The position numbers and the translations under genes are program-made. This document shows, one piece after another, positions 1,232-3,352 of a stretch of DNA of 41,499 bases. Within the stretch, counting starts at the first letter, position 1. Every line of letters begins with the position of its first letter. The DNA is from Flavobacteriales bacterium (GTDB lineage: Bacteria > Bacteroidota > Bacteroidia > Flavobacteriales_D > Sanyastnellaceae): positions 1 through 41,499 of the forward strand of contig CANIAA010000002.1 in the NCBI GenBank assembly GCA_947465255.1, read 5' to 3'. Under the pieces are notes generated by a model that saw only the letters and a program-made list of their open reading frames with translations, made no database searches and was not told the origin of the DNA.

Positions 1232-2653
1232 ATGAGCCACAAGAGTGTTGGAGCGCAATTCTACAATGATGTCCTCTCCTATTTCGATAAGGCAGCCGCA
1301 TTCACAACGTTTGATGAAGGCTTGCTGAATCAAATCAAAGTATGCAATAGTGTGTACAAGTTTTATTTTCCGCTAGAAATTAATGGTAAGATAGAAGTGT
1401 TCGAAGGCATTCGCGTTCAGCATAGCCATCATACAACACCTACCAAAGGTGGTATACGTTATAGCGAAATGGTCGATGAAGAAGAAGTAAAAGCACTTGC
1501 TACTTTGATGACCTTCAAGTGCGCAGCAGTTGATGTTCCATTCGGCGGTGCAAAAGGTGGTATTAAAGTAAAACCATCAACGCTGACCGTTTCACAACTG
1601 GAAAGACTAACCCGTCGCTACACAACAGAGCTAATAAAGAAGAATATGATCGGTCCGGCTGTCGATGTTCCTGCTCCCGACTATGGAAGCGGTTCACGCG
1701 AGATGGCCTGGATCGTTGATACATACGCCACATTCAAATTTGATGATATCAATGCGCTTGGATGTGTAACAGGAAAGCCTGTAGCGCAAGGAGGTATAGC
1801 AGGTCGCACGGAAGCAACCGGCCAAGGTATTTTCTTCGGTATTCGCGAAGCAATGAGTCATGCGGATGACATGCAAGAGCTCGGCCTAACGCCCGGATTG
1901 GAAGGCAAGCGAGTAATCGTGCAAGGTTTGGGTAATGTAGGTTTCTACGCTGCAAAATTCTGCAGTGAAGGTGGTGCCATTATTACGGGTATCGCTGAAT
2001 ACGAAGGCGGTATCTACAATGAAAACGGCCTCGACGTTGAAGAAGTATTCAAACATCGTAAAGCGTCAGGTTCTATTCTGAACTTCCCCGGAGCTAAAAA
2101 TTTCGAGCGTTCTTCCGAACTGTTGGAAATGGATTGCGATGTATTGATTCCGGCAGCCTTGGAAAATCAAATTACCGCTGAAAATGCTCCTCGCATTAAA
2201 GCGAAAATTATCGGTGAAGGAGCTAATGGCCCTGTATCGAAAGACGCCGAAGACATTCTGAACAAGCGTGGCATCATGATAATTCCGGACTTGTTCCTAA
2301 ATGCCGGTGGTGTTACAGTTTCTTACTTCGAATGGTTGAAGAACCTATCGCACGTCAACTTTGGTCGTCTTGAAAAGCGTTTTCAGGAAATGCAGGCTCG
2401 CCAGCTTATAAATGGGGTGGAAAAAATGACCGGTCGATCAATGGACGCTAAAGAGAAGAAAATTCTCATTCAAGGCGGCGGTGAAATCGACTACGTTCGT
2501 TCCGGACTGGAAGAAACGATGATCTATGCCTACAACGAAATACGCGAAATCAAAAAGGCCAATAAAAAAATTGAAGACTTGCGCACGGCTGCATTCGTGA
2601 GCGGCATTAATAAGTTGGGCGTGGCGTATCAATCGCTGGGTATATTCCCATAA
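1232..2653 (+). CDS. Glu/Leu/Phe/Val dehydrogenase family glutamate dehydrogenase
   Basis: This 473-residue protein should catalyse reversible oxidative deamination of glutamate to 2-oxoglutarate and ammonia in the cytoplasm. The N-terminal ELFV domain contains the substrate and catalytic lysine region (MTFKCAAVDVPFGGAKGGIK, residues about 90-109). The Rossmann domain begins near residue 227 with VIVQGLGNVGFYAA. The C-terminal part carries GEGANGP, IPDLFLNAGGVTVSYFEW and LRTAAFV. Motifs and layout resemble the animal mitochondrial enzyme (from memory) more than the short E. coli GdhA type. This includes extra residues, about 395-420, where the animal enzyme has its antenna. Cofactor preference cannot be settled by eye. 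The ATG follows an A-rich leader with a -7 box 22 bases upstream. Confidence 0.93.
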   Translation: MSHKSVGAQFYNDVLSYFDKAAAFTTFDEGLLNQIKVCNSVYKFYFPLEINGKIEVFEGIRVQHSHHTTPTKGGIRYSEMVDEEEVKALATLMTFKCAAVDVPFGGAKGGIKVKPSTLTVSQLERLTRRYTTELIKKNMIGPAVDVPAPDYGSGSREMAWIVDTYATFKFDDINALGCVTGKPVAQGGIAGRTEATGQGIFFGIREAMSHADDMQELGLTPGLEGKRVIVQGLGNVGFYAAKFCSEGGAIITGIAEYEGGIYNENGLDVEEVFKHRKASGSILNFPGAKNFERSSELLEMDCDVLIPAALENQITAENAPRIKAKIIGEGANGPVSKDAEDILNKRGIMIIPDLFLNAGGVTVSYFEWLKNLSHVNFGRLEKRFQEMQARQLINGVEKMTGRSMDAKEKKILIQGGGEIDYVRSGLEETMIYAYNEIREIKKANKKIEDLRTAAFVSGINKLGVAYQSLGIFP

Positions 2654-2730
2654 TTAATGACGAATGACTAATGGCAAGTGGCGAATGGCGAATGGGCACT
2701 CGCCATTCGCCACTTGCCATTCGCCACTAT
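2654..2730. repeat. Heptamer-built inverted repeat with 22-bp perfect stem
   Basis: Directly after the glutamate dehydrogenase stop codon lie six tandem heptamers of the form CGAATGG: TTAATGA, CGAATGA, CTAATGG, CAAGTGG, CGAATGG, CGAATGG. They are followed by inverted heptamers of the form CCATTCG or CCACTTG. The arms 2670-2691 and 2700-2721 are perfect reverse complements (22 bp) around an 8-base loop at 2692-2699. There is no T-run directly after the right arm, so it is not a standard intrinsic terminator, although an RNA copy would fold strongly. No second copy was seen in the window. Confidence 0.85.
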
Positions 2731-2779: not shown

Positions 2780-3352
2780 ATGGATTTCGCACCCAATAAA
2801 AATATCAAGCCCACCAAAGGCCAGGTACTTTTAGCCGAGCCTTTCTTGAATGACCCTTATTTCAAGCGCACCGTAATCTTTCTGTGTGAGCATAATAAAG
2901 ATGGTTCGTTCGGATTTGTGTTGAACAACTACATCAACATCGATTTAGAACAAATCATGGAAAATATGCCCACGTTCAAGGGCCGAATAAGCATCGGTGG
3001 TCCGGTGCGCAATAGCAACCTCTATTACTTGCACACCCTGGGCGATAAAATTTCGGACAGCGTTGAAATTATTCCCGGTGTGTTCATGGGCGGAAACTTC
3101 GACATCTTGAAGAAAATGCTATTTACCGGCGATGTCAAAAAGGAGGAGGTTCGTTTTTTTGTAGGTTACAGCGGTTGGTCACCCGAACAATTGGAAAGTG
3201 AAATCGAAAGCAAATCATGGTTCGTGGCAAATGTCCCCAAAGAGCTGCTCATGAACTGCGAGAACAATGATCTCTGGAAAACCATCATGAAGAGCATGGG
3301 TAGGAAAGGTGAAATGATTGCCAATCTCCCTGACGACCCTACCCTCAACTAG
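2780..3352 (+). CDS. YqgE/AlgH family protein (DUF179)
   Basis: The 190-residue length and motifs fit the YqgE/AlgH family. GQVLLAEPFLNDPYF near residues 14-28, FVLN followed by an acidic stretch, GGPV near residue 73, and GYSGWSPEQLE near residues 129-139 are all typical. The protein has no signal peptide and should be cytoplasmic. The family is widely conserved; in Pseudomonas AlgH was linked to alginate regulation, but the biochemical role remains unclear. The gene stands alone between the heptamer hairpin and the MBOAT operon. A PPL-type C-terminal tail of the family is present. The start is the first ATG in frame. Confidence 0.9.
   Translation: MDFAPNKNIKPTKGQVLLAEPFLNDPYFKRTVIFLCEHNKDGSFGFVLNNYINIDLEQIMENMPTFKGRISIGGPVRNSNLYYLHTLGDKISDSVEIIPGVFMGGNFDILKKMLFTGDVKKEEVRFFVGYSGWSPEQLESEIESKSWFVANVPKELLMNCENNDLWKTIMKSMGRKGEMIANLPDDPTLN

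Follow-up and report, generated by a model that had tools for sequence, protein, structure and literature searches.

A hairpin between gdh and yqgE, tentatively read as two polar heptamer arrays of a class dispersed at gene edges

The hairpin in the gdh-yqgE spacer

The window, that is the whole stretch of 41,499 nucleotides that we analyzed, carries a glutamate dehydrogenase gene (gdh), a YqgE/AlgH family gene (yqgE) and, in the spacer between them, two runs of heptamers in opposite orientation (Table 1). An initial annotation had described six heptamers in one direction, four or five in the other, a perfect 22-bp stem and an 8-base loop. All of this is borne out by the sequence and by the fold, the units of both arms being counted with a slightly relaxed heptamer pattern. 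The predicted fold reaches -48.2 kcal/mol against a mean of -24.55 for shuffled sequences (z -7.3), and none of 200 shuffles was as good. The 49 bases 5' of the yqgE gene lie outside the array, and a similar sequence is present in two genomes of the genus, G001 and G005. The array contains a single GGG, at 2694-2696 inside the loop, and does not hold four G-tracts. As for an intrinsic terminator, no T-run was seen 3' of the stem, where CCACTATTTAGCAACTTTTATCC comes next, and the terminator scan of the window listed nothing at the hairpin. The Rfam search of the window gave no match, and neither a GTAG- nor a CGTC-type REP tag was found on the stem arms (2670-2721).

Table 1. Positions of the features of the gdh-yqgE spacer (window coordinates) and of the Y1 genes of the genus (genome:contig:coordinates, or locus)
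Feature	Position	Strand	Basis
Glutamate dehydrogenase (gdh) gene	1232..2653	+	NCBIfam best E 2.9e-112, below curated cut-off
gdh stop codon TAA, outer edge of left arm	2651-2653	+	
Left arm, six RCNARTG-type units, first degenerate	2653..2694	+ (G-richer strand, reads away from gdh)	relaxed pattern
Stem, 5' half of perfect 22 bp	2670..2691	+	fold
Loop, 8 bases	2692..2699	+	fold
Right arm, four CAYTNGY-type units	2697..2724	- (G-richer strand)	relaxed pattern
Stem, 3' half	2700..2721	+	fold
Degenerate fifth right-arm unit, CCACTAT	after 2724, to about 2730	right-arm side	sequence
YqgE/AlgH family gene	2780..3352	+	NCBIfam E 2.1e-38, below curated cut-off
Y1 gene, genus	G000:C64:6784-7206; G006:C41:131-559; five more genomes (L370-L375, L377)		

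Array families in the genus and at orthologous sites

The window's heptamer family, RCNARTG/CAYTNGY, is called F1 below. We searched for it in the window's own assembly (G000, 2.45-Mb, 77% complete) and in the seven other genomes of the genus (G001-G007). G000 contains 123 + 95 exact three-unit matches, partly overlapping, against 0 + 5 for a reversed-pattern control, and six of the seven others contain 25 to 197; G003 has none but carries other array families. Outside the genus, 10 of 92 genomes show a match, most of them 1 to 5, with 32 in G017 and 71 in G036. These whole-genome and related-genome searches, with 218 matches in G000, confirm that the heptamer is dispersed and not confined to the window, and at orthologous sites the number and sequence of units do vary among relatives, as the initial annotation had anticipated. 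An element found here only and without variation, which was to count against its reading, is contradicted on both of these parts.

Its mention of similar repeats in cyanobacteria also proved apt, the same F1 heptamer being found in cyanobacterial loci. A scan of named genomes for long F1 arrays gave at least 114 stretches, and 80 loci were analyzed, 48 of them cyanobacterial by title, others being titled Bacteroidetes, Verrucomicrobia, Planctomycetes, Chloroflexi, Gammaproteobacteria and more. Over 264 F1 units, positions 1, 3 and 5 vary freely and positions 2, 4, 6 and 7 are at least 96.6% one base, a profile favoured by the choice of arrays, which were taken only if at least half of their units fitted the motif.

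A scan free of any motif, restricted to intergenic spacers, looked for matches at lags 4 to 13. In 437 kb of G000, made up of the window and 20 stretches chosen by contig number, it detected 8 lag-7 and 3 lag-8 arrays; in 395 kb of G005 it detected 12 and 3, respectively. The remaining lags gave one lag-10 and one lag-9 array in the two genomes together, and base-shuffled spacers gave no arrays. No arrays were present in samples of 16 to 20 kb drawn from six genomes (G008, G013, G062, G070, G074 and G085) that lie outside both the genus and g11. Besides F1, at least ten further families with units of 7 or 8 bases occur in the genus. The heptamers are GGAGAAN (F2), GGGCGAR (F3), AAGTAC-type (F4), GGTTGAA (F5), AGGTNAT (F6), GGACTG-type (F7), GGATTAC, AATTATG and ATTTAAG, and the octamers are AGGATTRT and GTGAAAT-type. 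The AGGTNAT and GGACTG-type families are seen both in the genus (L144, L139, L105) and in the cyanobacterial loci L204, L250 and L221, which had been fetched for another family. Several contigs end inside or beside long heptamer arrays (L180, which is G017:C1, L121, L122, L116 and L106), and the number and length of arrays in these draft genomes are therefore probably under-counted. At L039, two array sites about 600 bp apart (2343-2419 and 2940-3105) share a similar flank (AATTTGTGAAGGAYCGACCTTT), as if the site had been duplicated.

The gdh-yqgE spacer could be compared in G000, G001, G002, G005 and G006 (G003, G004 and G007 are not comparable at this site). The inverted pair is kept in all four relatives of G000, three of which use another unit: the pair is F1/F1 in G000 and G001, F3-type in G002 and G005, and made of octamers in G006. 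We then compared the orthologous regions of 15 array sites of G000 (11 of 58 sites plus four more), a choice partly due to array-rich loci, with families called by eye. At least one relative carries a different family at 11 of the 15; at two, a relative carries the same family (G005 at L040, G001 at L060), and at two, a relative carries no array (L154, L156). Several of the 11 switching sites also keep the same family in some relatives, for example G002 at L045 11011, and G001, G004 and G005 at L044 8661.

An arm can change family while its partner does not. At L151 6298, F5 units, in some cases degenerate, form the left arm in G000, G001, G002, G004, G006 and G007, and the right arm in the same six species is, in this order, F1, F1, F3-like, F7, F1-like and F1; G003 has no array there. 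At L044 8661, array-bearing and array-free states both exist. Five species carry an array, which in G004 and G005 lies below the detector threshold and was seen by eye; in G006 and G007 two convergent ORFs overlap and the site is array-free. In G000 and G005, the array-bearing cases that were translated, the ORF tails run into the array (L044 8661-8799): the last residues of both convergent proteins are unlike those of the array-free versions, and the stop codon of the left gene lies inside the array (orthologs at L343, L347, L359). As for a MITE, which would have fixed terminal inverted repeats, a target-site duplication and a common interior, no target-site duplication was obvious by eye in one array-free/array-bearing comparison, and the arms switch family.

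The genus has 63 pairs of adjacent arrays. Judged by purine content, 46 of these are oriented inward and none is oriented outward; 33 of the 46 are inverted repeats and 13 have little shared sequence. The two arms belong to the same family in 31 inward pairs (9.9 expected; maximum 18 in 5000 permutations), to different families in 7 and to unassigned ones in 8. Mixed pairs thus make up 7 of the 38 assignable facing pairs, and a GGTTGAA heptamer array may even face an AGGATTRT octamer array.

The initial annotation had suggested growth by slippage and copying through a hairpin, a model in which template switching would make the inverted copy. Growth by slippage is plausible; one array (L054) has reached 17 units, largely alternating with a 14-bp period. 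Copying through the hairpin does not stand as a general cause, and we regard it as an unlikely origin of the class. The window's 22-bp mirrored match tops its row, as do those of two G001 pairs (20 bp) and one G005 pair (17 bp), and when 19 pairs of several genomes are pooled the observed mean is reached by 83 of 5000 permutations, in a test that is confounded by genome differences. The same-family arms of 31 of 38 assignable pairs point in the same direction. Against it, the mirrored matches within the 11 F1 pairs of G000 are no longer than those between different loci (the mean was reached in 938 of 5000 permutations), and hairpin-only copying was on this ground rejected as the general cause. 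Outward pairs are nearly absent, whereas inverted copying could produce both orientations, and lone arrays lean the same way as paired ones. Moreover, arms that differ in family, even a 7-mer facing an 8-mer in the 7 mixed pairs, and the right arm of L151 that switches alone, argue that such copying is not general. Since the window pair is the best of its row, hairpin copying may nevertheless have acted there. The unbroken 7-base register across the turn, on which the initial annotation relied, is real at the window; as a rule it fails, because only 3 of 10 F1 pairs, the window's among them, have an in-register gap (1.4 expected; our own arithmetic).

Selection for RNA hairpins or bidirectional terminators between genes, in which the unit family would be free and the pairing kept, would agree with the inverted arrangement that persists at gdh-yqgE in five species with three kinds of units, with the z score of the window fold and with the excess of same-family pairs. 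This explanation is nonetheless doubtful: the window stem is followed by no T-run and has no terminator-like call, a separate terminator-like stem was seen by eye between the arms at L045 6306, L056 and L173 6159, and neither lone arrays nor mixed pairs can form a stem. We propose, as a possible reading that we hold with less than even confidence, that the feature in the window is a pair of distinct polar heptamer arrays. The first lies at the 3' edge of gdh, the second upstream of yqgE, and the hairpin would result from their common unit family.

Polarity of the arrays at gene edges

In the genus, 51 of 63 purine-rich arrays occupy the left half of the spacer and 40 of 52 pyrimidine-rich arrays the right half, and 45 of 56 spacers with a single array fit the same orientation. 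As a general rule, purine polarity had to be abandoned (p = 1 in the loci of other phyla, with 15 pairs inward and 12 outward). Counted by GC skew, the loci of other phyla give 59:17 and 52:19 (p 5e-10), with 24 pairs inward and none outward, and the genus gives 49:14 and 37:14, with 26 pairs inward and one outward. Arrays occur genome-wide, neighbours face inward, and the G-richer strand runs mostly 5' to 3' from the nearest gene edge into the spacer. At 3' edges this strand reads away from the nearest gene in 55:16 cases in the genus, 35:13 in cyanobacteria and 23:7 in the others; at 5' edges the counts are 31:12, 36:9 and 17:7 (p 0.064 for the last). Gene edges were taken from our simple ORF caller and the arrays of one locus are not independent; when a single array is taken from each locus, 40 of 48 and 49 of 62 fit the polarity.

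In four of the six classes, array-free edges are skewed in the same direction. Arrays are in excess over this background at 3' edges of the genus (array-free 80:74; p 0.0003) and at 5' edges of cyanobacteria (34:42; p 0.0001) and of other phyla (21:27; p 0.045), and show no significant excess at 5' edges of the genus (186:90; p 0.60) and at 3' edges of cyanobacteria (41:27; p 0.17) and of other phyla (24:10; p 0.78). Because array-free edges lean too, the polarity at single edges is partly background composition: a part of it may be ordinary edge composition, and the inward facing of pairs is the stronger sign of polarity. Among the 276 array-free 5' edges of the genus that are skewed, 186 have their G-rich strand reading away from the gene start.

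One could assume that transcription or base composition accounts for the whole effect, arrays arising anywhere and their G-rich strand following the skew that already exists at gene edges. The lean of array-free edges in four of six classes and the lack of a significant array excess in three of six are consistent with this; the excess over background in the other three classes and the facing pairs (26:1 and 24:0 inward) are not, and we consider it quite unlikely. A purely geometric polarity, equal at both edge types, could be suspected from the pooled counts, in which 5' and 3' edges do not differ in raw lean (p 0.89); it is weakened by the comparison with array-free edges.

The F1 heptamer offers a control for this polarity. 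In the F1 arrays of other phyla, the G-rich strand is mostly CAYTNGY, which fits in 40 of 48 cases, and RCNARTG, where G-rich, fits in 18 of 27; in the genus, RCNARTG fits in 37 of 45, and the single CAYTNGY array fails to fit. Sixteen F1 arrays are neutral in this count, and arrays of other families fit in 49 of 68 and 53 of 72 cases. The presence of GG in every unit is too weak to be a rule (75 of 111 in the genus, 67.8 expected; 94 of 197 in other phyla, 75.4 expected). The box TAnnTTTG, which we take to be the Bacteroidota promoter box, was also considered beside arrays and makes no difference (17 of 71 against 103 of 409). Directional growth would predict a gradient of unit homogeneity along the arrays, and none was found in 82 and 145 arrays, so that simple directional growth was rejected. 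In other phyla the unit is matched slightly better by 3' flanks than by 5' flanks (p 0.03), which is opposite to the expectation from directional growth.

Candidate enzymes, possible origin and known repeats

A polar process could start from DNA ends. In such a scheme, ends that are broken or stalled within the spacer would have their 3' G-rich strand extended on both sides, as in a telomere fusion, or arrays would act as Chi-like polar barriers to end-processing enzymes. It would explain why facing pairs point inward whatever their families and why the raw lean does not differ between 5' and 3' edges. The reverse transcriptase domain RVT_1 (PF00078) was found in 0 of 8 genus genomes, most of them incomplete (16 of 60 genomes overall), and Ku in 0 of 8 (1 of 60 overall); arrays have no age gradient, and background skew explains part of the lean. 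The many families per genome do not fit the single specificity of Chi. Growth at DNA ends therefore seems rather improbable to us. Another idea is that the C-rich arms are Rho loading sites that insulate genes from transcription coming from the spacer, since the polarity would place C-rich RNA toward each gene. A Rho domain is present in the 6 genus genomes tested and in G036, with no match in G017; it was found in 0 of 6 cyanobacterial genomes, although the arrays of cyanobacteria show the same lean, so that Rho loading is not general and appears highly improbable. RVT_1 and Ku, not found in the genus, and Rho, not found in the six cyanobacterial genomes, were thus set aside as explanations.

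Among the enzymes looked at, only a Y1 (HUH) transposase-like protein has any positional evidence. At least one Y1_Tnp domain occurs in 8 of 8 genus genomes and in 24 of 40 overall, with none in G017. A profile built from the seven genus Y1 proteins (141-145 residues) finds one strong hit (over 240 bits) in each of 7 of the 8 genus genomes and a relative at 72.6 bits in G003, and the other matches listed among 63 genomes are all below 53 bits; G017 and G036 (99% complete, with F1 arrays) have no match. Both HUH histidines and the tyrosine are kept, with the motif Y---Q--YH. The protein resembles solved IS200-type transposases (best E 2.2e-5) and stays below the cut-offs of the NCBIfam IS200 and REP-transposase models. 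It diverges fast: identity between species is 45-82%, and 46-51% between the G000 copy and the other six, compared with medians of 79-89% and tenth percentiles of 40-74% for the G000 proteins in our stretches. Its gene has a common neighbour of 380 to 403 residues in five genomes and another shared neighbour in G002 and G006. The Y1 stop codon is covered by an array in 3 of 7 genomes, compared with 15 of 587 genes from unselected stretches (p 0.0008), a contrast noticed post hoc, which against array-rich stretches becomes weak or nothing (p 0.05 and 0.67); in the four other genomes there is no array within 600 bp of the gene. The link between arrays and this single-copy protein is only suggestive, and its role as the engine of the arrays is speculative.

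REP-like palindromes of the form GGACGCA..TGCGTCC were seen at L150 (15842, 15972 and 16102, at least three copies spaced by exactly 130 bp), at L040 (3042) and at L105 (5907 and 8204), one of the latter between the two arms of an F3-type array pair. Palindromes of the form GACGCA..TGCGTC, a candidate cognate REP of the Y1 protein, number 9 in the G000 stretches, 8 in G005, 3 in G007 and 1 in G004, and none was found in G001, G002, G003 and G006.

The explanation that we prefer, tentatively, is that the arrays belong to a dispersed class of 7- and 8-base repeats at gene edges of the genus, shaped by copying to edges, slippage and overwriting. We propose that a single-strand process would copy short arrays to gene edges, using arrays at other places of the genome as source, and the copies would be polar for that reason. 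They would then grow and shrink by slippage and from time to time be overwritten by another family, and purifying selection would confine them between coding sequence and promoter. The hairpin would in this case be largely incidental, and any effect on mRNA 3' ends would be no more than secondary. On the other hand, the excess of same-family pairs and the perfect 22-bp match would fit some hairpin copying or selection for pairing, and some arrays hardly change between species (L040, L060). The skew of array-free edges, the missing homogeneity gradient and the arrays of G036 and G017 without a Y1 match also stand against our explanation.

One would also wonder which enzyme could act in this way. 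Speculatively, it could be the single-copy Y1 protein of the genus, working on single-stranded DNA in the manner of TnpA-REP. A more specific version, which we consider unlikely, involves a domesticated Y1 nuclease akin to TnpA-Y1 subclass 1.2. Using single-stranded DNA, this enzyme would write polar tandem heptamers and octamers at gene edges. If this were true, the system would be a REPtron with heptamer arrays as repeats instead of hairpins; enzyme and unit would co-diverge, which would explain both the switching of families at fixed sites and the presence of such arrays in Bacteroidota as well as Cyanobacteria.

Heptamer arrays have been noted before in Cyanobacteria, Xanthomonas, Beggiatoaceae and Bacteroidetes, and their mechanism and function are left open in the accessible parts of two reports (PMC4679880, PMC4692102). 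The genus offers a natural experiment, in which orthologous gene edges keep an array while the unit family is swapped and arms change singly. Such arm-wise switching helps to separate ideas based on hairpins, G-quadruplexes, Rho or composition from a polar process at the DNA level, and the analysis names an enzyme candidate, Y1, that can be tested.

A parallel can be drawn with several known systems. Telomerase-like arrays would involve a reverse transcriptase, and RVT_1 was found in 0 of 8 genus genomes. With REP/REPIN sequences and their TnpA-REP (RAYT) enzymes, as presented in the accessible parts of PMC8266576 and PMC6006769, the genus shares dispersed intergenic repeats able to form hairpins. 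It also has a single-copy Y1 HUH protein, whose stop codon is covered by an array in three genomes, as a candidate counterpart of the RAYT. A REP is defined, in the text available from PMC3733652, as a palindrome of 20-40 bp with a GTAG- or CGTC-type tag at one end; the repeat of the genus differs in having no GTAG-tagged palindrome and in being a tandem heptamer, often without a hairpin. TnpA-Y1 subclass 1.2, as outlined in PMC6006769, is low-copy, found mostly in Cyanobacteria and Bacteroidetes, and has no IS200-type ends. The genus protein is likewise low-copy with the DH[IV]H and Y---Q motifs, but shows Y---Q--YH where the subclass signature is Y---Q--HH.

The TAACTGA direct repeats (MacGregor 2015, PMC4679880) occur in Beggiatoaceae, Cyanobacteria and Bacteroidetes, with indels mostly in 7-nt steps and no evident mechanism. 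They resemble our arrays as heptamer arrays of scattered distribution, Cyanobacteria and Bacteroidetes included. They differ in the unit (RCNARTG/CAYTNGY in the window) and in lying mostly just upstream of start codons in the main species; unlike for the genus, a polarity rule across families, a switching of families or a class of facing pairs is not described in the accessible sections of the paper.

The closest likeness is perhaps with the GGGAATC and GGGGA(C/T)T heptamers of Xanthomonas and Nostoc (Rehm et al. 2015, PMC4692102). As the available portions of that paper describe them, they are intergenic, single or in inverted pairs close to a gene, with the G-rich heptamers on the coding strand downstream of stop codons and on the non-coding strand upstream of start codons; they are under-represented between divergent genes, and 83% share their location in two Xanthomonas species. 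For GGGNATC-type repeats, both the polarity rule and the inverted pairs are therefore already known. Our arrays are likewise tandem heptamers, intergenic, polar and able to form inverted pairs, their polarity being found in the raw counts of all six classes and above the array-free background in three only. They differ from the published type, as far as its accessible text goes, by the GGG runs capable of forming G-quadruplexes, which are not present in the window array, and by the at least ten further families of the genus, including 8-mers and units without G-runs. In the titles and abstract openings covered by an open-access literature search, no paper about family replacement at orthologous sites or about mixed-family pairs was found. 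Both features set the genus apart from the Rehm-type repeats as described in the available portions of that paper.
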